NCBI RefSeq assembly: GCF_027921845.1
Contig: NZ_BSEN01000004.1
Coordinates: 55,696-119,695, forward strand
DNA length: 64,000 nt
Reading direction: 5' to 3'
DNA from: Leifsonia poae
GTDB taxonomy: Bacteria > Actinomycetota > Actinomycetes > Actinomycetales > Microbacteriaceae
In this document: positions 775 through 31,796 of the stretch, in pieces
How positions within the stretch are numbered: position 1 is the stretch's first letter
How the letters are laid out: every line of letters starts with the position of its first letter
The notes under the pieces: generated by a model
The model's database searches: none
Told to the model about the DNA's origin: nothing
The model's input: only the letters and a program-made list of their open reading frames with translations
Translations under genes and position numbers: made by a program

Positions 775-780
775 TAGACT
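775..780 (+). promoter_or_regulatory. -10 hexamer for leaderless rmlC
   Basis: TAGACT lies 6 nt before GTG 787. This spacing puts the transcription start on the start codon and favours GTG 787 over the TTG at 784. Confidence 0.6.
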
Positions 781-15744: not shown

Positions 15745-17034
15745 ATGAAGATTGCGGTCATCGCGCTCGGCAAGATCGGTTTGCCCCTCGCCGTACAGTT
15801 CGCCTCGAAAGGGCACGAGGTGGTCGGCGTCGACGTCAACCCCCGCACCGTCGAGCTGGTGAACGCCGCGCAGGTCCCCTTCCCCGGTGAGACCGACCTC
15901 GACGAGAAGCTGACCGCAGCAGTCTCCGCCGGTTCGCTGCGGGCGACCACCGATTACGCGGATGCCGTTCCCGGCGCCGACGCCGTCGTGATCGTCGTCC
16001 CTCTGTTCGTCGACCTCGACGCCCGACCCGACTTCGCCTGGATGGATTCCGCCACCGAATCGGTCGCCGCCCACCTCACTCCCGGCACGCTGATCTCGTA
16101 CGAGACGACCTTGCCCGTCGGCACCACGCGCGAGCGCTGGACGCCACGCCTGGAGGAGATCTCGGGACTCACCGAGGGCGTCGATTTCGACGTCGTCTTC
16201 TCGCCGGAGCGTGTGCTCTCCGGGCGCATCTTCGCCGACCTGCGCAAGTACCCCAAGCTGATCGGCGGGCTCACCGAGCGCGGCGCGGCGCGGGCGCTGG
16301 AGTTCTACGAGGCCGTGCTCGACTTCGACGAGCGGCCCGACCTGCCGCGCCCCAACGGCGTCTGGGACCTCGGGTCCGCCGAGGCGGCGGAGTTCGCCAA
16401 GCTGGCCGAGACCACGTATCGGGATGTCAACATCGGCCTGGCGAATCAGTTCGCCCGCTACGCCGAACGCACGGGCATCGACGTGTACCAGGTGATCGAC
16501 GCCTCCAACTCGCAGCCGTACAGCCACATCCACCGGCCGGGCATCGCCGTCGGCGGCCACTGCATCCCGGTGTACCCGCGGCTCTACCTGTGGAACGACC
16601 CCGAGGCGACGATCGTTCGCGCCGCGCGCGAGGCGAACGCTGCCATGCCGGCGCACGCCGTCTCGATGCTCGAGGGCGCCTACGGCGAGCTGACCGGCGC
16701 CCGGGTGGTCGTGCTCGGCGCCGCCTACCGCGGAGGGGTCAAGGAGACCGCGTTCTCCGGCGTCTTCCCCACCGTCGAGGCGCTCCGTGCGCGGGGTGCC
16801 GTCCCCGTCGTCCACGACCCCCTCTACAGCGACGATGAACTGCGGGCTCTCGGCCTCGAGCCGTACACCCTCGGCGATCCGGCGGACGCGGCCGTCATCC
16901 AGACCGACCACGCCGAGTACAAGCCGCTCGGGCCGAGCGACATCCCGGGCGTGAAGGCCCTGGTCGACGGCCGGAGGCTCAGTTCTGCCGATATGTGGCC
17001 CGGCGTCGTGTACCGGGTGGTCGGAGTCTCCTAA
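15745..17034 (+). CDS. UDP-N-acetyl-hexosamine 6-dehydrogenase (WecC/WbpA family)
   Basis: The 429-residue enzyme belongs to the UDP-glucose/GDP-mannose dehydrogenase family and oxidises the C6 of a UDP-sugar to the uronic acid with NAD. Visible are the Rossmann start MKIAVIALGKIGLPLA, the conserved SPERVLSGR segment, the AEFAKLAETTYRDVNIGLANQF helix and the catalytic Cys273 in GGHCIPVYP. The VSPERxxxG and GGHC context fits the N-acetyl-hexosamine branch better than UDP-glucose dehydrogenase. With the epimerase at 20.0 kb and the three genes at 22.3-25.0 kb it completes a Wbp-like set. Its TAA stop is also the start of the next gene's -10 box. Confidence 0.88.
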   Translation: MKIAVIALGKIGLPLAVQFASKGHEVVGVDVNPRTVELVNAAQVPFPGETDLDEKLTAAVSAGSLRATTDYADAVPGADAVVIVVPLFVDLDARPDFAWMDSATESVAAHLTPGTLISYETTLPVGTTRERWTPRLEEISGLTEGVDFDVVFSPERVLSGRIFADLRKYPKLIGGLTERGAARALEFYEAVLDFDERPDLPRPNGVWDLGSAEAAEFAKLAETTYRDVNIGLANQFARYAERTGIDVYQVIDASNSQPYSHIHRPGIAVGGHCIPVYPRLYLWNDPEATIVRAAREANAAMPAHAVSMLEGAYGELTGARVVVLGAAYRGGVKETAFSGVFPTVEALRARGAVPVVHDPLYSDDELRALGLEPYTLGDPADAAVIQTDHAEYKPLGPSDIPGVKALVDGRRLSSADMWPGVVYRVVGVS

Positions 17035-17037
17035 GCT
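17032..17037 (+). promoter_or_regulatory. -10 hexamer fused to the upstream stop codon
   Basis: TAAGCT begins with the TAA stop of the dehydrogenase gene and is 6 nt before ATG 17044. The same promoter sequence and spacing occur at 13032. Confidence 0.65.
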
Positions 17038-17043
17038 CAGGCC

Positions 17044-18624
17044 ATGCGCAGGGTGGCGAACTCGATCTGGCTGAGTGGCCTGGTCTCCTTCGCGGCCCTG
17101 TTCCTGGTGTCGGGGGCCTGGTCCATCGCCACCCCGCTCTCGGCGAGCCCAGACGAGCCGTCCCACATCATCAAGGCCGCTGCGGTCGTGCGCGGTGAAC
17201 TCGTCGGCAAGCCCCTCCCGCAGTCCGGTTACACCGAGGTGCGCGTGCCGAGCGCCGAAGGCGACGCCTGGTTGTGGACGTGCTTCGCCTTCTATCCGAA
17301 CAAGTCGGCATCGTGCCAGGGCACGCCTCCCGGTTCGAGCGCCATTGTCACGGCGAAGACGTCGGCCGGGCTCTACAACCCGGTGTACTACGCCCTGGTC
17401 GGCTGGCCGAGCCTGCTGTTCAGCGAGCCGCACGCGGTCGTCTTCTCCATGCGGCTGCTCACGGCGCTGCTCTGCTCGGCTCTGCTGGCGGTCGCGGTCG
17501 CCGCCCTCTTCGCATTCCGGCGGTCGGCCGTCGCCGGTGCAGCAGCGCTCGCGATCGCGACGCCGACGACCATGTTCCTGAGCGGCAGCGTCAATCCGAA
17601 CGCCGTCGAGATCGCAGCGGGCGCAGCCCTGCTCGCTCTGCTGCTGCTGCTCGTACGCGGACCGGAGCTGCAGCGCCGGCGCACCGTGCTCGTGCTGATC
17701 GCCGTCACCGGCGTGCTGCTGGCCAACACACGAGCGCTGTCGCCGCTGTGGATGTTGCTGATCGTGATCATCGCCCTCGTCGCGGCCGACCCGGAGCGGC
17801 TCCGGGAGCTCTTCCGCCGGCCTGCGGTGTGGGTGACGATCGGGGTGGTCGGGATCGGTGTGATCGCGTCGGTGCTGTGGACGATGCGCGTGGGAGTGCT
17901 CTCCGGATTCGGGCACTTCCCCGGTCAGGATGTCAGCCCGTCCGGCGCCTTCATCGCGATGATCCTCGACCGCTCGTTCGACCGCGGGATGATCGGGCTC
18001 TTCGGCTGGCTCGACACCCCCGCCCCGCCGTTCGTGATCGCCTTCGGTACGCTGCTCGCGATGGGCACGGCCGTCGCGGCTCTCATCGTCGCCCGCGGAA
18101 GGCTCCTGGCCGCCGTGCTCGTCGCCGTCGCCGGCTACCTCCTCGTGCCCGCCGTGACGCAAGCGCTGTCGATCCGGCAGTCCGGCTACATCTGGCAGGG
18201 GCGGTACTCCCTCATCGCGTACGCCTGCGTCCTGGTGATCAGTGCCGTCGCGATCGCCGGGCCGGCTTCGCAGCCTGGTGCGCGGCCAGGGCCGGCGCGC
18301 GCCGGTGTCATCGTGCCCCGCCACCTCCTGCTGCGCGGGGTGATCACCCTCGGCGGACTCGCTGCGCTGGCGCAGACCTTGTCGATCGCGGGTGCGCTGC
18401 GGCGCTACGCGGTGGGAGAAGCGGGCACCTGGTCGTACTTCATCCTCGCGCCCCAGTGGCAGGCTCCCGGGTCGAACATCCTGTGGATCGTGGTCGCGCT
18501 CGCAGGCAGCGGACTCTTCGTCTGGCTGTGGGCGGCACGTGTGGCGGCCGAGACGGTCAGTCCTCGAACGCCGGATACGTCGGAGTCGACGGACTCGCCT
18601 GAATATCGAGCTGAAGCGCGCTGA
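17044..18624 (+). CDS. DUF2142 integral membrane protein
   Basis: The 526-residue protein starts with a membrane span and then has ATPLSASPDEPSHIIKAAAVVRGEL, the family's first-loop motif with the acidic-Pro-His core. About ten further hydrophobic segments follow. The family resembles GT-C enzymes that use polyprenyl-phosphate-linked sugars at the outer membrane face, a role that would match the GT2/GtrA pair just downstream. ATG 17044 appears leaderless. Its 3' end overlaps the convergent GT2 gene by 68 bases (18557-18624), so the last 22 codons are also coding on the other strand. A functional relation to the paralogue at 13044 is likely but not shown. Confidence 0.82.
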   Translation: MRRVANSIWLSGLVSFAALFLVSGAWSIATPLSASPDEPSHIIKAAAVVRGELVGKPLPQSGYTEVRVPSAEGDAWLWTCFAFYPNKSASCQGTPPGSSAIVTAKTSAGLYNPVYYALVGWPSLLFSEPHAVVFSMRLLTALLCSALLAVAVAALFAFRRSAVAGAAALAIATPTTMFLSGSVNPNAVEIAAGAALLALLLLLVRGPELQRRRTVLVLIAVTGVLLANTRALSPLWMLLIVIIALVAADPERLRELFRRPAVWVTIGVVGIGVIASVLWTMRVGVLSGFGHFPGQDVSPSGAFIAMILDRSFDRGMIGLFGWLDTPAPPFVIAFGTLLAMGTAVAALIVARGRLLAAVLVAVAGYLLVPAVTQALSIRQSGYIWQGRYSLIAYACVLVISAVAIAGPASQPGARPGPARAGVIVPRHLLLRGVITLGGLAALAQTLSIAGALRRYAVGEAGTWSYFILAPQWQAPGSNILWIVVALAGSGLFVWLWAARVAAETVSPRTPDTSESTDSPEYRAEAR

Positions 18625-19516
18625 TCAGCATCTGCGCCCCGAAGATCAGGGGCAGTGCGGCCAGCATGACGGTCGCGGCGGTCGCCACCACGGACCCGGC
18701 GACCTGGAAGCACACCCAGATCGCGATCCCCAGACCGACGCCGAAGAGGATGAGGCCGAGGAAGAGCAGCAGCGCGACCGGCGAGAACGACCAGAGCACG
18801 TAGCGGTACCAGATCCGGCGCCAGAACCCTCTGGTCAGCAGGCTGAGGAGCTCGGGGACCACCCGGGACAGCCGGATGCTCGACGCCTCGATGCCGTAGA
18901 CGGCGGGGATCGGGACGTCGATGGCGGGCACCTGCAGGATGTTCAAGTGGATCAGCAGGTCGTTCTCGAAGCTGTAGCGCTTGGCCACGGCATCGAGCGG
19001 CACCCGGCGCAGCACCTCGGTGCGCACGGCCGTGTAGCCGTTCTGCGGATCGAACAGGTGCCAGTATCCGGATGCCAGCTTGGTGAGGAACGAGAGCGCG
19101 ACATTGCCGAACACCCGGTAGCCTGGCATCCCGTGGAACGACTCGGGGGCGAAGAACCGGTTGGCCTTGGCGAACCCGTAGCCCTGCTTGGTCACGGCGT
19201 CGAGCAGCTCCGGCAGGTGCTCGGGGTCCATCTGCGCGTCGCCGGCCATGACCACGTTGACATCGGAGCCGAGCTCCATCGCGGCCCGGTGGGCTGTGAT
19301 GATCGCGCCGCCGACGCCCTGATTGACCTCGTGACGGATGAGCACGACCCGCTGGTCACCGACAGCGCGCACGGCGCCGGACGTGTCGTCGGGGCTGTGG
19401 TCGTCCACGATCACGATGTGGTCGACGAACGCGGGCATCGTCTCGATCACCGTGGCGATCATCCGCTCCTCGTTGTAGGCGGGCACGACCGCGGCGATGC
19501 GGGCTCCGTTGTACAC
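18557..19516 (-). CDS. GT2 polyprenyl-phosphate sugar synthase-like protein with C-terminal membrane spans
   Basis: The 319-residue protein has a dolichyl-phosphate-mannose-synthase-like GT2 domain (about residues 1-230) with VVPAYNEE, VDDHSPD and the metal motif AGDAQMDPEHL. Two membrane spans follow near residues 235-300. Such enzymes load a sugar onto polyprenyl phosphate at the cytoplasmic face. GTG 19516 lies one base after the stop of the GtrA gene, with AAGGACC as Shine-Dalgarno, so the pair is an operon. The GtrB/GtrA arrangement suggests a sugar that is flipped and then used by a GT-C enzyme such as DUF2142. The end overlaps the convergent DUF2142 gene by 68 bases. Confidence 0.88.
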   Translation of the reverse strand: MYNGARIAAVVPAYNEERMIATVIETMPAFVDHIVIVDDHSPDDTSGAVRAVGDQRVVLIRHEVNQGVGGAIITAHRAAMELGSDVNVVMAGDAQMDPEHLPELLDAVTKQGYGFAKANRFFAPESFHGMPGYRVFGNVALSFLTKLASGYWHLFDPQNGYTAVRTEVLRRVPLDAVAKRYSFENDLLIHLNILQVPAIDVPIPAVYGIEASSIRLSRVVPELLSLLTRGFWRRIWYRYVLWSFSPVALLLFLGLILFGVGLGIAIWVCFQVAGSVVATAATVMLAALPLIFGAQMLISALQLDIQASPSTPTYPAFED

Positions 19517-19517
19517 G

Positions 19518-19970
19518 TCAGGTCCTTTCGGTGCGGGCTTCTGCCACGTCGGGATCGGACGCGAACACCCAGTATCGGTAGGCGAAGTAGTTCCACGCGG
19601 TGCTCGCGACGGTCGCGATGACCTTGCCGCCGGCCCACCCCAGCACGGTGGTGTTCACGAGCGAGACGATGAGCACCGTCGCCAGCGTGTTGAACGCGAC
19701 GAGGAGCGTGTAGCGCAGGATGGCTCGGCCGTGGGGGGCGCGCGAGTCGAACGAGAAGATCCGCTGGATCGTGTAGGTGAAGGCGAAGCTCACGAGGAAC
19801 GCGACACCCGAGGCGAGCCAGACCGGCCATCCGAACACATCGTGGAGCAGTGCAAGGAGCCCGAAGTCGACGAGGAAGCTCAGGCCGCCGGCGATCAGGT
19901 AGCGGACGACCGAGCTGCGCAGGAGGCGGCGGGTGAGCGTCGCCCTCTCGTCGGCGGCGAACGGTGGCAC
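19518..19970 (-). CDS. GtrA-family membrane protein
   Basis: The 150-residue protein has four hydrophobic spans and the GtrA (PF04138) signatures RYLIAGGLSFLVDFGLLALL near the start and WNYFAYRYWVF near the end. The family is thought to flip polyprenyl-phosphate sugars across the membrane. GTG 19970 follows TACACT by exactly 6 nt, so it is probably leaderless, back to back with the equally leaderless wecB gene. The paired GT2 begins one base downstream of the stop. Confidence 0.88.
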   Translation of the reverse strand: MPPFAADERATLTRRLLRSSVVRYLIAGGLSFLVDFGLLALLHDVFGWPVWLASGVAFLVSFAFTYTIQRIFSFDSRAPHGRAILRYTLLVAFNTLATVLIVSLVNTTVLGWAGGKVIATVASTAWNYFAYRYWVFASDPDVAEARTERT

Positions 19971-19976
19971 GCAGAA

Positions 19977-19982
19977 AGTGTA
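19977..19982 (-). promoter_or_regulatory. -10 hexamer for leaderless gtrA-like gene
   Basis: TACACT on the minus strand is 6 nt before GTG 19970. The divergent leaderless promoter of the epimerase gene lies 49 bases away. Confidence 0.55.
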
Positions 19983-20030
19983 TGACCACGAGGGTCATCG
20001 GCCGTCGCGGCGCGTGCACTGCCCAGCAAG

Positions 20031-20036
20031 TAGGCT
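20031..20036 (+). promoter_or_regulatory. -10 hexamer for leaderless epimerase gene
   Basis: TAGGCT is 6 nt before ATG 20043. Confidence 0.65.
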
Positions 20037-20042
20037 CAAAGG

Positions 20043-21107
20043 ATGCGCGTTCTGAGTGTCGTCGGTGCCCGTCCCCAATTCGTGAAGCTCGCCCCCATCG
20101 CCGCCGCGATGCGCGACCGGGCCGAGCACATCGTGGTGCACACGGGCCAGCACTACGACGAGATCATGTCCGACGTCTTCTTCCGCGACCTCGGCATCCC
20201 TGCGCCGGATGTGAATCTCGCGGTCGGCTCCGGCAAGCACGGCGAGCAGACGGGCGCGATGCTCGCCGGGCTCGAGCCGGTCTTCGAGAAGTACCGGCCC
20301 GACTGGGTGCTCGTCTACGGCGACACCAACTCCACGCTCGCCGCAGCGGTGGCCGCGGTGAAACTGCACCTTCCGCTGGCGCACCTCGAGGCCGGCCTCC
20401 GCTCGTTCAACCGTCGTATGCCGGAGGAGCACAACCGGGTGCTCACCGATCATGCTGCCGACCTCCTCCTCGCGCCGACGCAGGTGGCGATGGACCATCT
20501 CGCAACCGAGGGTCTCGCGCAGCGCAGCGTGCTGGTCGGCGACGTCATGACCGACGTGCTGTACCAGGTGCGCGATCAGGTCGAGCGCTCCGGTCTCCGG
20601 CCGGCGGGGATGGAACCCGGGCAGTACTACGTCGCCACCATCCATCGGCCCGATAACACGGACGACCCGGCGCGACTCGCCGCCATCGTCGAGGCGCTGG
20701 GCGGACTCGACCGTCCGGTGCACCTGCTGGCGCACCCGCGCCTCGTCGCTGCGGCCGAGGCCGGGGGAGTCGACCTGCAGCAGGGATCGATCGTGCTGAC
20801 CACTCCGCTGGCCTACCCGGACCTGATCGCCGCCGTGTCGTCGAGCGCCGGAGTCGTGACGGATTCCGGCGGCCTGCAGAAGGAGGCCTTCCTCCTCCGC
20901 GTGCCGTGCACGACGGTGCGGCCCGAGACCGAGTGGGTCGAGACGGTCGAGCTGGGCTGGAACGAGCTCGTGGGGTCCGACCTGCCGCGGCTGCGTGCCG
21001 CGGTTCAGCGTCCGCGGCCGGCAGCGACCGAGGCGACACCGTACGGCGACGGGCACGCCGCGGCGCGGGTCGTCGACGTACTCAGCGAGCGGATGACGCG
21101 GAGCTGA
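20043..21107 (+). CDS. wecB: UDP-N-acetylglucosamine 2-epimerase family (WecB/WbpI)
   Basis: The 354-residue GT-B-fold epimerase converts UDP-GlcNAc to UDP-ManNAc, or in the WbpI subgroup UDP-GlcNAc3NAcA to UDP-ManNAc3NAcA. Visible are VVGARPQFVKLAP, HTGQHYDEIMSD, GDTNSTLAAA, HLEAGLRSFNRRMPEEHNR, the IHRPDNTDD segment and TDSGGLQKEAF. ATG 20043 follows TAGGCT by 6 nt. Which substrate is used cannot be read from the sequence; the presence of wbpB/D/E-like genes just downstream makes the WbpI role plausible. The stop codon lies in a short tandem repeat. Confidence 0.9.
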   Translation: MRVLSVVGARPQFVKLAPIAAAMRDRAEHIVVHTGQHYDEIMSDVFFRDLGIPAPDVNLAVGSGKHGEQTGAMLAGLEPVFEKYRPDWVLVYGDTNSTLAAAVAAVKLHLPLAHLEAGLRSFNRRMPEEHNRVLTDHAADLLLAPTQVAMDHLATEGLAQRSVLVGDVMTDVLYQVRDQVERSGLRPAGMEPGQYYVATIHRPDNTDDPARLAAIVEALGGLDRPVHLLAHPRLVAAAEAGGVDLQQGSIVLTTPLAYPDLIAAVSSSAGVVTDSGGLQKEAFLLRVPCTTVRPETEWVETVELGWNELVGSDLPRLRAAVQRPRPAATEATPYGDGHAAARVVDVLSERMTRS

Positions 21108-21161
21108 TCGAGCCGCTCTGATCGAGCCGCTCTGATCGGCCCGGGCGCTGATCGGGCCCGG
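21105..21161 (+). repeat. 14-bp tandem repeats with terminator-like hairpin
   Basis: Two perfect 14-bp units (21105-21118 and 21119-21132) and two diverged ones follow the epimerase stop. The diverged copies form a hairpin: CCGGGC at 21141-21146 pairs with GCCCGG at 21156-21161. The element lies between convergent genes and may terminate both. Confidence 0.5.
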
Positions 21162-21167
21162 TCGCGT

Positions 21168-22337
21168 TCAGGCGGCGCGGACCGCCTCGAGCACTCGCCG
21201 GGCGGCGGCCGTCCCCGCTGCGGCGATCGACGCGTGCTCGCGCGCCCATGCGGCCCGCCGCTCGCGCTGAGCCGCCGAGGAGCCGTCGGCCTGCGCCTCG
21301 GCTGCTGCGATCATGGCGTCGGCGACCGAGCGCGCGTCATGCCCGCACCGCCAGCCCAGGTCGTTGTCAGCGACGAGCGACGCGCCGGCACCCTCGCCGG
21401 CGAACACCACGGGGACACCGCACGCGGCGGCGGCGTAGGTCTTGGTCGGCTTGGCGAAGTCGTACCCGGCGCCGGGGCTGATGCTGGCGAGCGCAGCGGT
21501 CGCACTGCGGATCCAGGTGGCGGTCTGCGCGGGCGGGATCACGCCGCCGAAGAGCACCACCGTCTCGAGACCGAGCCGCGCGGCGGTGCGCTTCAGCTCC
21601 GGCTCCTCCACACCCTGACCGAAGAAGCGGATCGTCGCGTCGGGGAACACCTCGCGCACGAGGGGGAGCGCCTCGACGAACACCGTGGGGCTCTGCCACT
21701 CGGACATTGCTCCGGTGTACACGAACATCGGGTGCCCGACCTCGACCGATTCGCCCAGCGGCGTGAACGTGTCGGTGTCGACACCGTTTCCGACGACGGC
21801 GATCGACGAACGAGCCGTGCCGAACGCGGCGACCTTGTCGGCCACCTCGTCCGAGACAGCGACGACGGCGGCGGCGTTGCGGAGCACGAATCCTTCGACC
21901 GCGCGCATGATTCGGATGAGCGCGCCGGGTGCGCCGAGCGCGACCAGACCGTCCGTCCACACGTCGGCCGCATAGTAGGCGTACGGCCTCCGGCGCAGCC
22001 AGGAGGTGACCGCGACGACCAGGCCGGTGGTGGGCGGCGGCTCGGAGACGACGAGGTCGGCCGACGACACCAGGAGTCGGAAGAACAGCGGGATGTCGAA
22101 GCTGAGGTACTGCACGTAGCCGCGGACGTTTCCGCCTGCGTCTCGCAGTACCGGGAGCCGGCGCACCCGCACGCCGGCGTCGCGGGCAGGACGCCCGGAG
22201 CCTCGCGGTGGGTTCGTGGTGACGACGGTGACCGCTGCCCCCTCACCCGACAGCCCGCGTGCGAGAGCGCGCAGCCGGAAAGCCGCTGCCCCGACCTCGG
22301 GCGCATAGAGGCGGGAAGCGATCAGTACCCGTCGCAT
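21168..22337 (-). CDS. GT4-family glycosyltransferase
   Basis: The 389-residue GT-B protein starts MRRVLIASRLYAPEVGAAAFRLRAL, typical of WbuB/WcaI-like GT4 enzymes. It continues with PPPTTGLVVAV, YYAADVWTDGLVALG, VVGNGVDTDTF and a C-terminal GYDFAKPTKTYAAAACGVPVVFAG donor site. ATG 22337 has a GAGG Shine-Dalgarno; the longer frame to 22580 runs antisense-like over the neighbouring gene and is not used. It is the last gene of the operon that makes a diacetamido sugar, 8 bases after the oxidoreductase, and so probably transfers that sugar or an acceptor for it (inference). Confidence 0.88.
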   Translation of the reverse strand: MRRVLIASRLYAPEVGAAAFRLRALARGLSGEGAAVTVVTTNPPRGSGRPARDAGVRVRRLPVLRDAGGNVRGYVQYLSFDIPLFFRLLVSSADLVVSEPPPTTGLVVAVTSWLRRRPYAYYAADVWTDGLVALGAPGALIRIMRAVEGFVLRNAAAVVAVSDEVADKVAAFGTARSSIAVVGNGVDTDTFTPLGESVEVGHPMFVYTGAMSEWQSPTVFVEALPLVREVFPDATIRFFGQGVEEPELKRTAARLGLETVVLFGGVIPPAQTATWIRSATAALASISPGAGYDFAKPTKTYAAAACGVPVVFAGEGAGASLVADNDLGWRCGHDARSVADAMIAAAEAQADGSSAAQRERRAAWAREHASIAAAGTAAARRVLEAVRAA

Positions 22338-22345
22338 GCGTGACC

Positions 22346-23347
22346 TCACGCCGGCAGGACGACCGTCGCCGACTGCTCGGCCGACGCGAGGACGGCCTCC
22401 GCGACGCGGACGTTCTCGAGGCCTTCGCGCATGGTGACGATGCGGGCGGGAGCGTTCTCCCGCCCGAGGATCGCATCGCGGAAGGCCTCGTGCTCGACGC
22501 GCAGCGGCTCGCGCTTGGTGAGGGCGTAGCGCAGCACGCTGCCCTCGCTCACTCCCCGGAAAGCCATGACGGACTCCCACTCGGTGCGCGCGGTGCCGTT
22601 CTCATAGAATGTGAGATCGCCGCTGATGGTGTCGGCGACGAACGACCCGAACTCGCCGGTGACGACCGTGACCCGTTCCTTCATCGGCGAGAGCCAGTTC
22701 ACGAGGTGGTTCGTGATCACGTTGTTGCGCAGCCGAGCGGTGAACGACACCATGTCCTCGAACTCGCGCCCGCTGCGCAGCGCCGTGTGCGCCGACACGG
22801 ATGCGAATCCGCTCCGCGCGAGCCACGAGGTGAGGTCGATGTCGTGGGTCGCCAGGTCTTTCACGACGCCCACATCGGCGATGCGTGCCGGGAACGGTCC
22901 CTGCCGGCGCGTGGCGATCTGGTAGACCTCGCCGAGCTCGCCGGCCTCGATGCGCTCGCGGAGGCTGAGGAGCGCAGGATTGAAGCGCTCGATGTGTCCG
23001 ACAGCACCGACCAGGCCGGCGCGCTCGAACGCCTCGACGACCCGGGTCCCCGACTCGACGTCGCCCGCGATCGGCTTCTCGACGAGTGCGTGAACGCCGG
23101 CCTCGGCAAGGCGCAGTGCGACCTCTTCGTGCAGGAAGGTCGGAACGGCGACGACCGCCCCGTCGATGCCGAGATCGATGAGCTCGTCGACCGACGCCGA
23201 GATCGCGAGATCGCCGGCGACGCCGTGGGGGTCGCCGTACGAGTCGGCGACGCCGGCGAGCGTGACGCCCTCGACCTCGCGGATCACGCGGGCGTGGTGG
23301 CGTCCCATCATCCCGAGGCCGATGAGGCCGATGCGCAGGTCGGCCAT
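22346..23347 (-). CDS. Gfo/Idh/MocA oxidoreductase, WbpB/WlbA-like
   Basis: The 333-residue NAD-dependent enzyme has RIGLIGLGMMGRHHARVI (Rossmann fold), VVAVPTFLHEEVAL, the catalytic Lys motif HALVEKPIA and a DLATHDIDLTSWL active-site helix with conserved acidic and His residues. Homologues with this context oxidise C3 of UDP-GlcNAcA before transamination. ATG 23347 shares its A with the stop of the aminotransferase (TGATG), so the genes are translationally coupled. The much longer open frame upstream is the shadow of the aminotransferase gene. Together with genes on either side it builds a 3-acetamido sugar. Confidence 0.88.
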   Translation of the reverse strand: MADLRIGLIGLGMMGRHHARVIREVEGVTLAGVADSYGDPHGVAGDLAISASVDELIDLGIDGAVVAVPTFLHEEVALRLAEAGVHALVEKPIAGDVESGTRVVEAFERAGLVGAVGHIERFNPALLSLRERIEAGELGEVYQIATRRQGPFPARIADVGVVKDLATHDIDLTSWLARSGFASVSAHTALRSGREFEDMVSFTARLRNNVITNHLVNWLSPMKERVTVVTGEFGSFVADTISGDLTFYENGTARTEWESVMAFRGVSEGSVLRYALTKREPLRVEHEAFRDAILGRENAPARIVTMREGLENVRVAEAVLASAEQSATVVLPA

Positions 23348-24444: not shown

Positions 24445-25031
24445 CAGTCAACCTCTTTCAGTACATCGTCGTGTTCGCGGTATCGCTCGCCCGTGACGGG
24501 GCACACCCAGTCGTCGCCCTCGCGTTCGAGCGGCACTCCGGCCTTGCCGACCCAGCGGATGCGCCGGGCGGGCACGCCGGCCACCAGGGCGAAGTCGGGG
24601 ACGTCGGTGGTGACGACGGCTCCGGCGGCGACGGTAGCCCACCGGCCGATGGTCACGGGGGCGATGCAGACCGCACGCGCGCCGATGGAAGCACCGTCGT
24701 GGATCGTGACGCCGACCGGCGTCCAGTCGTGCGCGCTCTTCAGCTCTCCGTCAGGGGTGACCGCACGCGGGTACGTGTCGTTGGTGAGCACGACGGCCGG
24801 CCCGATGAAGACTCCGTGGCCGAGCACGGCCGGCTCGTAGACGAGCGCGTAGTTCTGCACCTTGCAGTTGTCGCCCATCCGCACGCCCGTGCCGATGTAC
24901 GCACCGCGGCCGACGATGCAGTCGGTGCCGAGCACCGCGTTCTCGCGGACCTGGGCCAGATGCCAGATCTTGGAACCATCGCCGATCGACGCGTCCGGCG
25001 AGACGTCGGCCTGAGGTGCGACAAAGACCAA
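24444..25031 (-). CDS. Left-handed beta-helix sugar N-acetyltransferase, WbpD-like
   Basis: The 195-residue protein is a hexapeptide-repeat (LbH) acetyltransferase with VAPQADVSPDASIGDGSKIWHLAQVRENAVLG, VYEPAVLGHGVFIGP and VLTNDTYPRAV. WbpD/WlbB homologues acetylate the 3-amino group of a UDP-3-amino-uronic acid with acetyl-CoA. A C-terminal extension holds a Cys-containing WVCPVTGERYRE stretch. The start is TTG 25031 with AAGG upstream; no ATG or GTG in frame would keep the first helix turn. It is the first gene of the operon. A minus-strand TAGTTT at 25095-25090 is a candidate -10. Confidence 0.88.
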   Translation of the reverse strand: MVFVAPQADVSPDASIGDGSKIWHLAQVRENAVLGTDCIVGRGAYIGTGVRMGDNCKVQNYALVYEPAVLGHGVFIGPAVVLTNDTYPRAVTPDGELKSAHDWTPVGVTIHDGASIGARAVCIAPVTIGRWATVAAGAVVTTDVPDFALVAGVPARRIRWVGKAGVPLEREGDDWVCPVTGERYREHDDVLKEVD

Positions 25032-25160
25032 CGCCTTGTGTCCTCTCGGGAGTGAAGGGTGCCCGCATTACAGGGGCGATTGCGCATCGAAACTACCACG
25101 CGAACCTCCTGGGAAGCCCGGCGGACGGCCAGGGCCCAGGTTCGCGGCGGGTGCCCGAGC

Positions 25161-25166
25161 TAAGAT
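25161..25166 (+). promoter_or_regulatory. -10 hexamer of the GT2-DUF2304 operon
   Basis: TAAGAT would start transcription near 25173. This leaves a leader of about 50 nt that carries the AGAGGAG Shine-Dalgarno at 25210-25216. Confidence 0.45.
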
Positions 25167-25223
25167 GGGTGAGCGATTCGAGCTGAACAGCCCTGACCCG
25201 GGCGACGACAGAGGAGACCACCG

Positions 25224-25901
25224 ATTACACCCGTCGAGCACCGAACGTGGCTCGTGATCCCTCTTTACAACGAAGCGCCTGTCGTGCGCGCCGTCGTGGA
25301 AGAGGCGCGTAAGACGTTCCCCAAGGTCGTCTGCGTCGACGACGGGAGCACCGATGCCTCCGTCGTCGAGGCGCGTGCCGCCGGTGCGGTCGTCGTCCGT
25401 CATCCGGTCAATCTCGGACAGGGTGCCTCCCTGCGCACCGGGCTCGATTATGCGCTCGCCGATCCGTCCGCCGACTACTTCGTGACGTTCGACGCCGACG
25501 GTCAGCACCAGGTCGCCGACGCCGTCGCGATGGTGCACATGCTCGACGAGCAGCCGCTCGACATCGTGGTCGGCTCGCGCTTCCTCGACAAACGCACCAA
25601 GGTCGCCTTCGTCAAACGCGTCGTGCTGAAGCTGGGTGTCGTCTTCGAGCGGATGAGCAGCGGGGTCCAGCTCACCGACGCGCACAACGGCCTCCGGGCA
25701 TTCAATCGCCACGCTGCCGAGACGGTCGCCATCACGCAGAACCGCATGGCGCACGCGTCGGAGATCGTGTCGGAGATCGGTCGCAACCGACTGCGCTGGG
25801 CCGAGGCGCCGGTGCACGTGGTCTACACGGACTACTCGCGGTCGAAGGGCCAGTCCGTCTGGAACTCGGTCAACATCCTCAGCGATCTGTTCCTGAAGTA
25901 G
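25224..25901 (+). CDS. GT2 glycosyltransferase with probable ATT start
   Basis: The 225-residue protein is a small polyprenyl-phosphate-type GT2 with LVIPLYNEAPVVRAVV, VVCVDDGSTD, HPVNLGQGASLRTGLDYAL and the metal motif TFDADGQHQ. The frame is closed upstream by a TGA at 25194. Within it the only ATG/GTG/TTG before the first strand is GTG 25254, inside that strand (TWL-VIPLYNE), which would remove about ten residues. ATT 25224 has a strong AGAGGAG 7-8 nt upstream and gives a normal N-terminus, so it is annotated as the start. DUF2304 follows 8 bases later, a common GT2 partner. Confidence 0.75.
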   Translation: MTPVEHRTWLVIPLYNEAPVVRAVVEEARKTFPKVVCVDDGSTDASVVEARAAGAVVVRHPVNLGQGASLRTGLDYALADPSADYFVTFDADGQHQVADAVAMVHMLDEQPLDIVVGSRFLDKRTKVAFVKRVVLKLGVVFERMSSGVQLTDAHNGLRAFNRHAAETVAITQNRMAHASEIVSEIGRNRLRWAEAPVHVVYTDYSRSKGQSVWNSVNILSDLFLK

Positions 25902-25909
25902 GAGACACC

Positions 25910-26428
25910 GTGGACACGGGACAACTCACCATCAAGATCATCCTGATCATCGTTCTCGCAGCCTTTGCGATCTTTCTGATCCTGCCGGGCCGCGGGGTGC
26001 GCCATCTGGCGATCCGCCGGCTGGTCATGCTGCTCCTGGTGGCCGTCGTCGTGCTCGCCGTCATCTTCCCGTCGGCCGTGACGGCCGTCGCCCGCGTCGT
26101 CGGCGTCGGCAGAGGCACCGACCTGCTGCTCTACGGGCTGATCGTCGTCTTCGTCGGCAATTCGATCCTGCAGCAGCGCAGGCACCGCCATACCGAACGG
26201 GAGATCACCGAGCTCGCCCGGCAGCTCGCCATCCTCCAGGCGCCGCGAGCGGGAGACGCGTTCCCCGACGTGGCGGAGGGCGTCGCCGAGCCCGTCGTCG
26301 AGCCCGTCGTCGCGCCCATCGGTGCAGCCGGTCAGGCGTCGGTACTGCCGGCGGCCGAAACAGTCGCCCCGTCCGGTTCTGAGCAAACGCGTAGTGGCTC
26401 TTCGGATACTCAGAGACCCATCTCATAG
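25910..26428 (+). CDS. DUF2304 membrane protein
   Basis: The 172-residue protein has three predicted membrane spans (about residues 7-26, 38-56 and 70-86). A cytoplasmic helix QQRRHRHTEREITELARQLAIL follows, then a Pro/Val/Ala-rich tail. DUF2304 proteins sit beside GT2 polyprenyl-phosphate transferases and probably act as membrane partner. GTG 25910 has AGGAGA from the upstream stop region. Its TAG stop (26426-26428) is at the same time the first half of the TAGAAT -10 box of the following galE gene. Confidence 0.82.
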   Translation: MDTGQLTIKIILIIVLAAFAIFLILPGRGVRHLAIRRLVMLLLVAVVVLAVIFPSAVTAVARVVGVGRGTDLLLYGLIVVFVGNSILQQRRHRHTEREITELARQLAILQAPRAGDAFPDVAEGVAEPVVEPVVAPIGAAGQASVLPAAETVAPSGSEQTRSGSSDTQRPIS

Positions 26429-26431
26429 AAT
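26426..26431 (+). promoter_or_regulatory. -10 hexamer fused to the DUF2304 stop codon
   Basis: TAGAAT begins with the TAG stop of the DUF2304 gene and is 7 nt before ATG 26439. Confidence 0.65.
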
Positions 26432-26438
26432 CGGGCCC

Positions 26439-27416
26439 ATGCGAATCCTCGTCACCGGCGGCGCCGGCTACATCGGCGCGCACGTGGTGCGCCTGCTGCG
26501 GCGCCGCGGCGACCATGTGGTCATCGTGGACGACCTCGCGACCGGGGATGCCGGCCGGGTTCCGGATGTACGCATCGAGCAACTCGATCTCTCAGAGCCG
26601 TCGTCGGTCTCGCGCGTAGCGAGCCTGCTCGCCGATGAGAAGATCGAGGCGGTCCTGCACTTCGCAGCCCGAAAGCAGGTCTTCGAGTCTGTTCAGCGAC
26701 CCGCCTGGTATTTCCAGCAGAACGTCGCCGGACTCGCCAACCTGTTGCTTGCCATGGAAGACGCTTCCGTCACCCGGCTCGTCTTCTCGTCCTCGGCGGC
26801 CGTGTACGGCAGTGCGACGGGAAACGCCATCCCCGAAGACGCCGACGCCGTGCCGGTGAACCCGTACGGCGAGACCAAACTGGTCGGCGAGCAGCTCGTG
26901 CGCGACGCCGCGACCGCGTTCGGCCTGTCCGCGGTCAGCCTGCGCTACTTCAACGTCGCCGGTACCGGATGGCCGGAGCTGGCCGACCGTGCCGTGCTCA
27001 ACCTCGTCCCCATGGTCATCGAACGCATCGAGAACGGACTGCCGCCCCTGATCTTCGGCGACGACTACGACACGGCCGATGGGACCTGTGTGCGCGACTA
27101 CGTGCACGTGCTCGACCTCGCTGAGGCGCACCTGGCCGCCGTCGACCGCACGGCCGCCGACGAGCCTGGCCACACGGTGTTCAACGTGGGCACGGGCGAG
27201 GGCACGAGCGTGCGGGCGATGGTCGAGGCCATCCTCGCTGTGTCGGGTTCGGCGCTGCGACCGGAGACCGCTCCGCGCCGGCACGGGGACGCCGGCATCG
27301 TGGTCGCATCGCCCGCGAAGATCGAACGCGAGCTCGGCTGGCGTGCCAGCCGTGGCCTCGACGAGATCGTCACCTCGGCGTGGGACGCCCACGCCTCCCG
27401 GTCGGCTCTCGCGTGA
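26439..27416 (+). CDS. galE: UDP-glucose 4-epimerase
   Basis: The 325-residue short-chain dehydrogenase-type epimerase interconverts UDP-glucose and UDP-galactose, or their N-acetyl forms. It starts MRILVTGGAGYIGAHVVRLL (NAD site), and has FAARKQVFESVQRP, FSSSAAVYG, the catalytic PYGETKLVGEQ (Tyr-x3-Lys) and RYFNVAGTG, with a FGDDYDTADGTCVRDYVHV segment typical of GalE. ATG 26439 is leaderless by geometry. The stop overlaps the GT2 start as GTGA. A second galE lies at 34399-35361, so two activated sugars or two expression states are needed. Confidence 0.92.
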   Translation: MRILVTGGAGYIGAHVVRLLRRRGDHVVIVDDLATGDAGRVPDVRIEQLDLSEPSSVSRVASLLADEKIEAVLHFAARKQVFESVQRPAWYFQQNVAGLANLLLAMEDASVTRLVFSSSAAVYGSATGNAIPEDADAVPVNPYGETKLVGEQLVRDAATAFGLSAVSLRYFNVAGTGWPELADRAVLNLVPMVIERIENGLPPLIFGDDYDTADGTCVRDYVHVLDLAEAHLAAVDRTAADEPGHTVFNVGTGEGTSVRAMVEAILAVSGSALRPETAPRRHGDAGIVVASPAKIERELGWRASRGLDEIVTSAWDAHASRSALA

Positions 27417-28390
27417 CGCGTCTCTCGGTCGCGTTGTGCACGTACAACGGCCGCCCCTATATCGCCGAGCAGTTGCTGAGCATCCTCGATCAGCGACCCG
27501 CTGCCTCTCAGCTCGTGGTCTCCGACGACGGGTCCGATGACGGCACGGTGGCCGTCGTGCGCGAGACGATCGCCTCGCGCGACGATGTGCCGGAGCTCGT
27601 CGTGCTCGAGGGCGATGCTCCGACCGGCGTCACCGCGAATTTCGAGCGTGCCATCGCCGCGGCCGATGGCGACCTGGTGGCGCTGAGCGATCAGGATGAC
27701 CGCTGGCATCCCGGGCGGCTCCGCACGATCACCGAGCGCTTCGCCGCCGACCCGTCTCTCACCTTCCTGCACACGGACGCCGCCTTGGTCGACGAGAACG
27801 GCGTGGCCCTCGGACGCACGCTCTTCGAGTCGCTCGAAGTCTCTCCCGCGGAGTTCCGGGCCGAGCGGAGCGGCGACGCGTTCCGGGTGCTGCTGCGCCG
27901 CAACCTCGCGACCGGTGCCACGGCGGTGTTCCGTCGCGACCTGGTGGAGCGGGCGATGCCGTTCCCGCCGGAATGGGTGCACGATGAGTGGCTCGCGATC
28001 ATCGCGTCGGTGACGGGTCGTGTCGACGTGCTCGAGGAGCCCACCATCGACTACCGCCTGCACGGCTCCAACCTCATCGGCGTGGCCGAGCCGACCTTCC
28101 GGTACAAGGTGTCGCGCGTCCTGCAGAACCGCGGCGATCGCAACCTGATGCTCGCCCGCCGCTTCGCCGTGCTCGCCGACCGTCTCGCCGAACTCGGCGA
28201 CGCCGTGCCGGAGGGCGTGCTGGAGCACGCGAGGGCGAAGGCCGCGTTCGAGGCGGAGCGCGCGGCGCTGCCGGGGAACCGCCTCAAGCGGGTGCGCGCG
28301 GTGCTCGCCCTCTGGCGGCGTGGACTGTACGTGCAGTACGCCAGCCGCGGCACGGCGGATGTTCTGCGCGATCTGTTCCAGCCCGCTTAG
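27413..28390 (+). CDS. GT2 glycosyltransferase, rhamnosyltransferase-like
   Basis: The 325-residue enzyme has LSVALCTYNGRPYIAEQL, the VVSDDGSDDGTV motif, LSDQDDRWHPGRL and TFLHTDAALVDENG. This pattern matches the WfgS/RgpF-related GT2 family with QDD as metal site. The second part (WVHDEWLAIIAS, DYRLHGSNLIG) is also typical. GTG 27413 overlaps the galE stop (GTGA), so translation is coupled and the sugar made by GalE may be its donor. The stop overlaps the convergent polymerase gene by 4 bases. Donor identity is not visible. Confidence 0.87.
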   Translation: MTRLSVALCTYNGRPYIAEQLLSILDQRPAASQLVVSDDGSDDGTVAVVRETIASRDDVPELVVLEGDAPTGVTANFERAIAAADGDLVALSDQDDRWHPGRLRTITERFAADPSLTFLHTDAALVDENGVALGRTLFESLEVSPAEFRAERSGDAFRVLLRRNLATGATAVFRRDLVERAMPFPPEWVHDEWLAIIASVTGRVDVLEEPTIDYRLHGSNLIGVAEPTFRYKVSRVLQNRGDRNLMLARRFAVLADRLAELGDAVPEGVLEHARAKAAFEAERAALPGNRLKRVRAVLALWRRGLYVQYASRGTADVLRDLFQPA

Positions 28391-29682
28391 ACCTGCTGCG
28401 GCTCCCGGTGCGGCAGGTGCCGCCGCCAGCTCATCCCCTGCGAGGCCTTCACCGCGCAGATCACCAGCAGCAGCCATCCGGCCTCGACCAGGATGGAGCT
28501 CTCGAAGACGCTCGTGGTGAGCAGGGCCACGAGCACGAGCGGCGCCCAGGCGTACACGACGCTGCGCTTGTTCGAGGCGAGCAGCCAGGAGCGGCCGAAC
28601 GCGAGGGCGAGCAGGGCGACGAACAGCAGGACGCCGATGATGCCGACCTGCAGGTAGACGTCGAGGTAGGCGTTGAGGCCGTCGGTGTGCGCTGAACCGG
28701 TGGCGGCCTGGATGGCCGTGAACGGGTAGATGTCCTGCGGCCATTGGCCGACCCATCCCCAGCCGACCGTCTGGTTGACCGGGATGAGCTCCCAGATCTG
28801 GATCCACAGCCGGTACCGCACCTGGAAGTCGGCGCGGGCGTTCAGCAGGTCGATGACGCGCGTGCGGTACACGTAGGCCAGCACGAGCGCGACGATCGTC
28901 AGCGCCGCGAGCCCCCACTGGTAGTAGCGGCGGTGTTTCGCCTGCACCTGGCGCAACGCGAAGAGAGCGAGCGTCGCCAGGCCGACGACGAGCGACACCG
29001 CGGCGATCACGGGGGAGTGGGCGAGCAGGATGCTGAGCACGGCGAGCGTGATCGACACCGCGGCCAGCGGCGGCCGCACCGACCGGGTGCGCAGCTCGAC
29101 GAGGAACGTGACGAAGGCGATGAGGGCGACGATGCTCAGCTGGTTGCGGGAGCCGAACAGCCCCTGGATCGGACCGCCGCCGGCGATGTTCCCCTGGATG
29201 CCCAGGAACCGGATCGGCAGGTCGATGATCAGCCCGCTGAACACCTCGAGCGCGAGAGATGCCGTGAGCAGGAACCGCAGCACGTCGCCGACCACCCGCA
29301 CGATCTGGATCGCGTCGCGCACGAGGGCGATGTAGATCGCGAGGAAGGCGAAGCTCAGCTGATAGACCACGCCGGCGAGCGTCGCCCATTGGTAGCTGCT
29401 CCAGAAGAGACTGATCGCGCACCAGCCGACGAAGACGAGGATGGAGATCGGAAGCAGGCCGTGCCACTCGATCATGCGGCGCTGGGCGATGAACGAGAGG
29501 GCCGCGAGCACCACGAGCACGGCGATCGCGCCGATCAGGCCGGGCCAGCCGATGACGGCCCGGATCGCGTGGGTGGAGAACCCGACGCCGACGGCCACCA
29601 GCGAGAGCACGGAGTTGAACCGCGCAGAGCCGAGGAACTCGGTCACCGCGACGGGGACCAGGGGACGTCGGGTCGCGGCCAT
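28387..29682 (-). CDS. O-antigen ligase/polymerase-family membrane protein (Wzy-like), copy 2
   Basis: The 431-residue protein has about 11-12 membrane spans and the large extracytoplasmic loop near residues 265-330. In it GWGWVGQWPQDIYPF and HTDGLNAYLDVYLQVGIIG match the Wzy_C (PF04932) core. Such proteins join or polymerise lipid-linked glycans outside the membrane. It is a clear paralogue of the next gene (29692-31008). ATG 29682 is leaderless by geometry: TAGGAT at 29694-29689 begins with the paralogue's TAG stop. Gram-positive members can act on teichuronic or other wall polymers; the exact role is unknown. Confidence 0.85.
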   Translation of the reverse strand: MAATRRPLVPVAVTEFLGSARFNSVLSLVAVGVGFSTHAIRAVIGWPGLIGAIAVLVVLAALSFIAQRRMIEWHGLLPISILVFVGWCAISLFWSSYQWATLAGVVYQLSFAFLAIYIALVRDAIQIVRVVGDVLRFLLTASLALEVFSGLIIDLPIRFLGIQGNIAGGGPIQGLFGSRNQLSIVALIAFVTFLVELRTRSVRPPLAAVSITLAVLSILLAHSPVIAAVSLVVGLATLALFALRQVQAKHRRYYQWGLAALTIVALVLAYVYRTRVIDLLNARADFQVRYRLWIQIWELIPVNQTVGWGWVGQWPQDIYPFTAIQAATGSAHTDGLNAYLDVYLQVGIIGVLLFVALLALAFGRSWLLASNKRSVVYAWAPLVLVALLTTSVFESSILVEAGWLLLVICAVKASQGMSWRRHLPHREPQQV

Positions 29683-29688
29683 GCAGCA

Positions 29689-29694
29689 ATCCTA
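29689..29694 (-). promoter_or_regulatory. -10 hexamer fused to the upstream stop codon
   Basis: TAGGAT on the minus strand starts with the TAG stop of the upstream polymerase and is 6 nt before ATG 29682. Confidence 0.65.
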
Positions 29695-31008
29695 CGGTGC
29701 GGTCTGCTTCGTCTTCAGTGAGAACACGACCAGGAGCAGCCAGCCGCCCTCGATGATCAGGCGGCTCTCCGCAACGCTCTGGGCGAGGTAGGCCGCGAGT
29801 ACGAGCAGCGGCAGCAGGGTCAGCGCGGAGTACGGCTTGTCATCGACGACGCCCGTGCGCGGCCGGTCGACGGCGAGGAACCAGGAGCGCTTCAGCGTGG
29901 CGAGCACCAGCAGGATGAAGACGACGAGACCGACGATGCCCAGCTGGAGCCAGACGTCGAGCCACACGTTGTGCGCCTGCAGGTACTGGACCCCGTTGCG
30001 AACGGCGAGACCGTCGAAGGGGGCGACCCACGGCGCCCAGTAGCTCACCCAGCCCCAGCCGAACGCCGGGCGCTGCTGAGCCAGGCCGATCACCGAGTCC
30101 CAGATCGTGAGGCGCCCGGTGAGGTCTTCGCTCTTGCCGAGCAGACCCGGGATGCGCGAGGCGAACACAATGGACAGCACGACGCCGACGACCAGGAGGG
30201 CCGCCGCCGTGAGGTAGACCGGCCGTCGATGGTCGGGGCCGGCCCGTCGCGTCCAGAGGGCGAACGCGAGCACCACGACGGTGAAGAGCAGAGCGACGAT
30301 GACCGTCGACGAGCGGGTGAGCGCGAAGGTGAGAAGCCCGACGACGATCCAGGCGATGCCCACCGAGCGCCGCACCGTGCGATCGGCGAGCTGGATGCCG
30401 AACACGATGAGGGCGAGCAGCGCGATCATCGCCAGCAGGTTGCTGTTGCCCAGGATGCCCTGGATCTGGCCGCCGTGGAACAGCAGGTCCCTGCTCCAGT
30501 AGAACGCCGCCGGCTGCTTTCCCGGAGGATACGTAGCCCAGGGGGGCAGCACCGGCTGTCGGACGAACAGCGAGACGATCAGCTCGAAGACCAGCGAGAG
30601 CCCCAGGATCCAGCGGAACGCGTTGCCGAGGGCCCGCAGCAGCTGCGGCCAGTCGAGGCAGAGGGCGACGAACACGGCGGCGGTGGTGGTCGACCACTGG
30701 GCGAGCACGCCGAGGGCGCTCGCACCCGGGTAGAACGACCACGCGATCGACACCGTGAGCAGCAGCAGGAACAGGGCGAGCATCCGGGGCGTACGCCGCC
30801 AGTTGAAGGCGGGGCGCCGGCGCACGAGGAACACGATGCTGCCGACCAGCAGCAGGCCGTCGAGTGCGAAGTACGCGGGCCAGCTGATCAGGTTGCGCCA
30901 GAAATCACCAGCGAAGAGCGTGAAGATCACCAGGGTCGCGAACGCCACCGCGCCTCCGCCGCCCGTGGCGGTGCGGGTCGGCCGGCGGGTCGATGCTGCG
31001 GTGGTCAC
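29692..31008 (-). CDS. O-antigen ligase/polymerase-family membrane protein (Wzy-like), copy 1
   Basis: The 438-residue multispan protein has a Thr/Arg-rich N-terminus and about 12 hydrophobic segments. The Wzy_C-type loop contains FGWGWVSYWAPWVAPF and QAHNVWLDVWLQLGIVGL. Compared with copy 2, the same order of motifs (GWGWV, then H-N/D-G-L-N-x-YLDVYLQVGIIG, and ESRLIIEGGWLLLVVFSLK at the end) is conserved, so the pair arose by tandem duplication. GTG 31008 overlaps the stop of the GH16-like gene as GTGA, so it is coupled to it. A role in glycan polymerisation or ligation is inferred from family. Confidence 0.86.
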   Translation of the reverse strand: MTTAASTRRPTRTATGGGGAVAFATLVIFTLFAGDFWRNLISWPAYFALDGLLLVGSIVFLVRRRPAFNWRRTPRMLALFLLLLTVSIAWSFYPGASALGVLAQWSTTTAAVFVALCLDWPQLLRALGNAFRWILGLSLVFELIVSLFVRQPVLPPWATYPPGKQPAAFYWSRDLLFHGGQIQGILGNSNLLAMIALLALIVFGIQLADRTVRRSVGIAWIVVGLLTFALTRSSTVIVALLFTVVVLAFALWTRRAGPDHRRPVYLTAAALLVVGVVLSIVFASRIPGLLGKSEDLTGRLTIWDSVIGLAQQRPAFGWGWVSYWAPWVAPFDGLAVRNGVQYLQAHNVWLDVWLQLGIVGLVVFILLVLATLKRSWFLAVDRPRTGVVDDKPYSALTLLPLLVLAAYLAQSVAESRLIIEGGWLLLVVFSLKTKQTAP

Positions 31009-31784
31009 CTCGAAAGACTAATGGAGCGGGCCTGCGACGACCCTTCGACCCGGCGCACGGCGAGCTCGGCGACGGGTGTCACCGCATCCGGGTCGTCGCC
31101 GGGGGCGCGATCGGGGAAGTCGAAGACGCCGAGGATGAGCTGCAGCGGGTAGTCGGGCGCGATCGCGACGCTGCGGGTCGCGTCGCCGTCGACCGAGAAC
31201 TCCACGCCGTCGGGGCTCCAATCGGCGGCGTAGACGTGCCAGTCGTTCACGTCGACGCCCAAGTCGATCGCGTCGAAGTCCTCGCGCAGTCGCGGATCGC
31301 GGAACGGGTGCACGCCGCTCCCGACGAGTCCCGTGTCGCCGAACACCTCCACGAGGCAGATCTCGCCGCAGCGCTCCGGGCGGTCTTCGAGGCCGACCAT
31401 CCAGGCCGAGAACATGGATCGAGCTGAGATCGTGGCGCGGCACTCCACCTCGATGCGGCCGTAGAGCGGCGCGAAACCGATCACGGTCGGCTGCTCCTCG
31501 CGCACGGTCAAGCCCGCGCGGAACGGCTGCTGGCCATCGGCGCTGCCCACCGGCCCGGATCGGTTCCCGGTCTGAACCGCGGAGACCCGCAACGGCCCCT
31601 CGTGGAGGTCGGGGCACCACAACGGATGCGCCGGCGGAATGCTGAGCGAGAGCTCGCCCCCAGCGACGCGATAGGTCGCTGCCGAGGCGGCGCGCGAACT
31701 CCAGGCCGGCAGGTAGCTCGTGGTCCACACCGCCGGATCCAGGTCGTCGCCGTCGAATGTCTCGACGAAGCGCGCCATCGCCAT
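31005..31784 (-). CDS. GH16-like beta-glucanase-fold protein without signal peptide
   Basis: The 259-residue protein matches the concanavalin-type GH16 fold: FVETFDGDDLDPAVWTTSYLPAW at the start, YGRIEVECRATIS in the centre, then GEICLVEVFG, and DWHVYAADWSPDGVEFSVDG. The canonical catalytic motif is E-I-D-x-x-E; here it is Glu141-Ile-Cys143-Leu-Val-Glu146, so the assisting Asp is Cys. No signal peptide or membrane span is visible, so it stays in the cytoplasm unless another route exists. ATG 31784 is leaderless (TAGCGT at 31796-31791, containing the manA stop). It is coupled to the polymerase gene by GTGA, suggesting a glycan-linked role other than secreted hydrolysis. Confidence 0.75.
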   Translation of the reverse strand: MAMARFVETFDGDDLDPAVWTTSYLPAWSSRAASAATYRVAGGELSLSIPPAHPLWCPDLHEGPLRVSAVQTGNRSGPVGSADGQQPFRAGLTVREEQPTVIGFAPLYGRIEVECRATISARSMFSAWMVGLEDRPERCGEICLVEVFGDTGLVGSGVHPFRDPRLREDFDAIDLGVDVNDWHVYAADWSPDGVEFSVDGDATRSVAIAPDYPLQLILGVFDFPDRAPGDDPDAVTPVAELAVRRVEGSSQARSISLSR

Positions 31785-31790
31785 ACCGGG

Positions 31791-31796
31791 ACGCTA
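31791..31796 (-). promoter_or_regulatory. -10 hexamer fused to the manA stop codon
   Basis: TAGCGT on the minus strand starts with the manA TAG stop and is 6 nt before ATG 31784. Confidence 0.65.

Follow-up and report, generated by a model that had tools for sequence, protein, structure and literature searches.

Leaderless genes of Actinobacteria are described as having a TANNNT hexamer about 12 bp upstream (PMC3160421), and about 97% of the starts mapped in C. glutamicum have TAnnnT ahead of them (PMC3890552). In mycobacteria, the -10 hexamer and the Shine-Dalgarno sequence are reported to be mutually exclusive (PMC4633059), and in M. tuberculosis the -35 element is not conserved and new copies of TANNNT often yield new starts (PMC3898074); all of these statements come from excerpts of the papers. 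We describe here four junctions in a 64-kb stretch of the Leifsonia poae genome (contig NZ_BSEN01000004.1, positions 55,696 to 119,695; the whole stretch is called the window) at which the first three bases of such a hexamer, the candidate -10 box of one gene, are at the same time the TAG or TAA stop codon of the gene before it. Judged from the sequence comparisons set out below, the overlap of stop and -10 box is a genuine kind of junction that is kept at some loci and makes use of a known type of promoter. The TANNNT leaderless promoter is known; for the position of the upstream stop within the next gene's -10 box, no description was found in the titles, abstract openings and excerpts of the literature searched.

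The four junctions

On the plus strand, the TAA stop of a UDP-glucose/GDP-mannose dehydrogenase-like gene (15745-17034) forms the first half of TAAGCT (17032..17037), the candidate -10 box of a DUF2142 gene whose ATG at 17044 follows after a 6-nt spacer. Further along the same strand, the TAG stop of a DUF2304 gene (25910-26428) opens TAGAAT (26426..26431), which is separated by 7 nt from the ATG at 26439 of an NAD-dependent epimerase gene (best named relatives: Mycetocola and Salinibacterium). The remaining two junctions are on the minus strand. TAGGAT (29689..29694) begins with the TAG stop of a Wzy_C ligase-like gene (29692-31008) and ends 6 nt before the ATG at 29682 of gene 28387-29682, which has no Pfam match, and TAGCGT (31791..31796) begins with the TAG stop of a mannose-6-phosphate isomerase gene (31794-33014) and ends 6 nt before the ATG at 31784 of a GH16-like gene (31005-31784). 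Each of the four upstream genes has an in-frame TAA or TAG stop, a coding score and a Pfam match (UDP-glucose/GDP-mannose dehydrogenase, DUF2304, Wzy_C ligase and mannose-6-phosphate isomerase). The genes named make up a surface-sugar-like cluster: dehydrogenase, DUF2142, DUF2304, NAD-dependent epimerase, Wzy_C ligase, GH16-like protein and mannose-6-phosphate isomerase.

An earlier note on this DNA had reported the four shared hexamers, a stop-to-start gap of 9-10 nt and TGA as the usual stop of the window. All the stops, hexamers and starts were found where it had placed them, the distance from hexamer to ATG is 6 or 7 nt at all four junctions, and TGA is indeed the commonest stop, both in the window (37/53 called genes) and in a larger sample of the same genome (786/1133). 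The genome comprises 4.07 Mb in 15 contigs, and the G+C content of the window is 67-73% in 4-kb blocks.

Frequency of the overlap and the leaderless signal

Genes were called with a purpose-written dicodon gene finder that is blind to the sequence upstream of the start. The own-genome sample consists of the window and 60 stretches of 20 kb (1.2 Mb; total 1.26 Mb) with 1133 called genes, to which the four-genome sample adds 0.4 Mb each from the genus relatives G004 and G013 and the family relative G033. The latter contains 1442 same-strand junctions, 416 with TAR (TAG or TAA) and 1026 with TGA as the upstream stop. We call a junction fused if the upstream stop is the TAR of the hexamer and the start lies 9-10 nt on, and read-through if the TAR is in another frame. 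Non-actinobacterial loci were called by length of the open reading frame only (51 of 60 were used, the 9 with a G+C content of at least 55% being left out), and at locus L296 the start was set 3 nt upstream of the match, which had begun at residue 2.

The earlier note had proposed counting such junctions against those ending in TGA. In the four-genome sample, 26 of the 130 TAR junctions with a gap of 0-30 nt have a gap of 9-10 nt, compared with 4 of the 153 TGA junctions (Fisher p=2.5e-6). T is found at position 6 in 18 of these 26, against 42 of the 390 TAR junctions at all other gaps, and the 18 fused junctions compare with 1.0 expected from neighbouring gaps and the whole-sample background rate of T. 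Fourteen of the 18 lie outside the window. All four TAR junctions of gap 9-10 among 20 actinobacterial loci of named records are fused (three in Salinibacterium relatives and one in Mobilicoccus), and none of the eight in the 51 loci of archaea and non-actinobacterial bacteria with a G+C content under 55%, where gene calling was simpler, is fused. The window, which was chosen for its four cases, has 4 fused among 36 same-strand junctions, against 4/693 in the rest of the own-genome sample; the 15-kb surface-sugar cluster (17000-32000) holds 4 of the 8 fused junctions in 1.26 Mb. This richness possibly comes from frequent shuffling of the cluster genes.

The hexamer is found at the same distance from starts throughout the genome. 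In the own-genome sample, TANNNT is located 12 or 13 nt before 120/776 ATG and 39/317 GTG starts, and the counts for the remaining distances between 5 and 29 nt are 0-9 each; for all four genomes together, the figure at 12-13 nt is 291/2208 starts. The pattern TARNNTN6ATG occurs 218 times in the whole genome, against 65 for its reversed version. A Shine-Dalgarno word (GGAG or GAGG) precedes 0/18 fused starts versus 529/1287 other same-strand starts; such words are found at 7/136 leaderless-like starts adjoining an opposite-strand gene and at 10/137 other leaderless-like same-strand starts. Position, the absence of a Shine-Dalgarno sequence and, at those loci that could be compared, conservation in the genus all give the hexamers the look of true leaderless -10 boxes. 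To this extent the earlier note's proposal of leaderless promoters at the junctions is supported. At 17032 and 31796, none of the relatives compared shows the fusion.

We consider it very probable that these are ordinary actinobacterial leaderless promoters of the TANNNT kind, lying so close to the gene before them that its stop is the TAG or TAA of the -10 box. The housekeeping sigma factor would direct RNA polymerase to the hexamer in the DNA, and transcription would start at the first base of the ATG or GTG, 6-7 nt beyond it, while a ribosome finishing the upstream gene would stop at the first three bases of the hexamer in the upstream mRNA. The overlap would set both the 9-10 nt gap and the type of stop, TGA being excluded because TANNNT requires A at position 2. 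As to origin, GC-rich coding sequence contains little TA, so that a TAR stop would offer an easy site for a -10 box beside a gene; in addition, if the upstream gene lost its own stop, the box would catch it.

Conserved and changing junctions in relatives

Two loci could be followed through 28 genus genomes. For the 29694 locus, a homologue of gene 28387 and a Wzy_C-like match are present in 28/28 and are neighbours by position in 26; in G020 and G025 another gene lies between them and they are about 1.3 kb apart. The box is kept in all 28 genomes as TAGGAT (21), TAGTCT (6) or TAGGCT (1), with T1, A2, G3 and T6 invariant and a spacer of 6 or 7 nt. It coincides with the upstream stop, always TAG, in 22/28; in the six unfused genomes, G020 and G025 among them, the upstream stop is located 20-76 nt before it (TGA 4, TAA 1, TAG 1). 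The other locus is that of the dTDP-4-dehydrorhamnose 3,5-epimerase gene (787-1398, plus strand), whose TAGACT box (775..780, plus strand) is unfused in the window. The box is identical in 28/28 genomes, and the upstream gene is fused in 9, read-through in 2 and ends earlier in 2, with no same-strand upstream gene detected by our script in the other 15. Since the box is kept whether the upstream stop is on it or off it, the promoter at both loci is, by this comparison, conserved and the overlap optional; spacer and upstream context vary. Upstream of the homologue of the 787 gene in several genus members (L272, L275, L281, L286 and others), GAGTCTAC ... GTAGACTC occur as inverted copies that resemble two -10 boxes facing outward.

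The 26426 junction is fused also in G021 (as TAGACT), the one relative examined, and the C-termini share stretches by eye. For 17032, conservation via the downstream DUF2142 gene was considered and rejected, its homologues in the loci examined being 31-45% identical and none fused at the called start. The homologue in G021 (L079, about 1424) would be fused as TAGCGT, 7 nt and GTG if the GTG 6 nt past the called start were used; it was left uncounted.

At 31796, a GH16-like gene is the next called gene after the isomerase gene in 0/24 genus relatives examined, and the GH16 matches, found in 13/27 relatives, are all away from the isomerase/Wzy_C region; because it is absent there and matched elsewhere, the GH16-like gene (31005-31784) seems to be a recent arrival, inserted in this lineage between the isomerase and Wzy_C genes with its box on the isomerase stop. 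In G004 and G007 the Wzy_C gene comes next after the isomerase gene, and a TAGTCT box lies between the two. The TAGTCT box of the Wzy_C gene in the window (start 31008; box at 31015..31020, minus strand) is unfused, the 3' end of the GH16-like gene running across it in a different frame; a box that is intergenic in G004 and G007 is kept here though read through.

Fusion of a class-II glutamine amidotransferase gene is confined to G004 and G007; in these, the TAG on the box comes at 292 and 291 codons, respectively. A match was present in 25/28 genomes, and in the other 23 the gene ends in TGA at 280-286 codons, making the G004 and G007 versions 5-12 codons longer. This suggests a frame that ran on into the box. 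The comparisons suggest that fusion may come about in two ways, by placement of a box on an existing stop or by extension of a reading frame into a box.

Competing explanations and known parallels

The earlier note took the use of TAG and TAA at these junctions as a sign of selection. This is correct insofar as TAG or TAA goes with the promoter, since TGA cannot be part of TANNNT, but it is not borne out for fusion itself. Selection of fusion as a space-saving arrangement, by which operon genes would gain a promoter of their own without spacer DNA, could be added to the leaderless reading, although we judge it improbable. The ratio of fused to read-through cases for TARNNT is 18:8 against a frame-neutral 1:2 (p=2e-4), 17:6 when counted once per homologous family and 13:4 without the families occurring in the window. 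However, the excess over 1:2 had to be rejected as proof of selection, as the TARNNV control (TAR words at the same place lacking T at position 6) gives a similar ratio of 8:4 in only 12 cases (Fisher p=1 against 18:8); if any in-frame start is allowed, the ratios are 21:8 and 11:4, again small numbers. Moreover, the box is kept unfused in 19/28 genomes at the 787 locus and in 6/28 at the 29694 locus. Selection for fusion need not be assumed to account for the fused excess, though the control comprises only 12 cases. Where the TAR of the box is in frame with the upstream gene, that gene has to stop there, whereas other frames read through it, and the frequency of TA per position in codon phases 0, 1 and 2 of these genes is 0.0206, 0.0021 and 0.0023, about ten times rarer in phases 1 and 2; this may prevent TAR from occurring within coding sequence in those frames that read through.

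A gap of 9-10 nt might instead reflect coupled translation, or re-initiation behind the stop of the upstream gene, with no promoter involved; the distance is short, and the part of the mycobacterial study consulted describes re-initiation where genes lie close together (PMC4633059). Such a process should serve TGA as well, yet at this gap spacing depends on stop identity (26 TAR against 4 TGA) rather than being independent of it, as would be expected of coupled junctions; nor would it call for T at position 6 (18/26) or for a box that is kept where no same-strand upstream gene was detected by script (15/28 at the 787 locus). We regard coupling as very unlikely. An overlap of the stop with a weak Shine-Dalgarno sequence (TAGG...), as TAGGAG may provide elsewhere, is more unlikely still: 10/18 fused hexamers do begin with TAGG, and TAGGAG stops make up 2/8 of the TAR junctions of gap 9-10 in the non-actinobacterial loci, but 8/18 lack TAGG, no GGAG or GAGG precedes any of the 18 fused starts, TAGG also begins 40/136 leaderless-like boxes beside opposite-strand genes, and T at position 6 is no part of a Shine-Dalgarno sequence. 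Coincidence of base composition is the least credible of all, and we give it almost no weight; the motif is short and the window was picked because it held four cases, but 14 cases lie outside it where about one was expected in the whole sample, and the box is conserved among orthologues. An individual junction might nonetheless be due to chance.

Several observations nevertheless weigh against the leaderless promoter reading or parts of it. The 17032 junction is unfused at the called start in all homologous loci examined, and 31796 is unfused in relatives, the isomerase gene ending in TGA in 24/24 genus relatives examined; only the general statistics therefore speak for these two. TTGACA at -35 spacing is not enriched for leaderless-like or fused boxes (mean best match 2.39 for the 18 fused, 2.65 for 274 other leaderless-like and 2.68 for 1921 other starts), which leaves the hexamer and its spacing as the sole promoter signal. 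The lack of a -35 signal matches what is reported for M. tuberculosis (PMC3898074), but the leaderless promoters of S. lividans carry a -35 consensus, according to the excerpt consulted (PMC8079986). The argument from scarcity of TA is itself weakened, since TANNNT is nearly as common per position in phase 2 (0.00052) as in phase 0 (0.00062), with 0.00017 in phase 1.

If the junctions are leaderless promoters, the overlap is a concrete reason for TAG or TAA at some junctions in genomes that prefer TGA. Fused hexamers would mark likely internal promoters in apparent operons by sequence alone and help to place starts, and the two conserved loci, each with fused and unfused forms among 28 genomes, constitute a natural experiment on the sharing of bases between a promoter and the end of a frame. 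Only tentatively, and as a rather doubtful generalisation, would we extend this to GC-rich actinobacteria at large, where the next gene's promoter might dictate how and where the previous gene ends; sharing of stop and -10 box would then be a heritable junction type that fixes TAG or TAA against TGA, extends proteins into the neighbour's promoter and possibly couples termination to transcription of the next gene. Such coupling could occur, for example, where a polymerase that opens the box encounters ribosomes halting on a transcript of the same bases.

Stop codons that overlap a Shine-Dalgarno sequence are a known arrangement. There, as here, the stop also serves as a signal for expression of the gene that follows; that signal is translational in the known case and would be transcriptional in ours. 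With actinobacterial leaderless genes as described in the excerpts consulted, the junctions have in common the hexamer, the 6-7 nt to ATG or GTG and the lack of a Shine-Dalgarno sequence (PMC3160421; PMC3898074; PMC4633059; PMC8079986). They differ in that the first three bases of the hexamer are also the upstream stop, a feature that these excerpts do not mention, and, from the promoters of S. lividans, in that no -35 consensus is seen (PMC8079986). The coupled RTGA junctions of leaderless small open reading frames in mycobacteria, again as given in an excerpt (PMC4633059), likewise have a stop that shares bases with the signal of the next gene; there, TGA overlaps the start codon, whereas here TAG or TAA overlaps the putative promoter.

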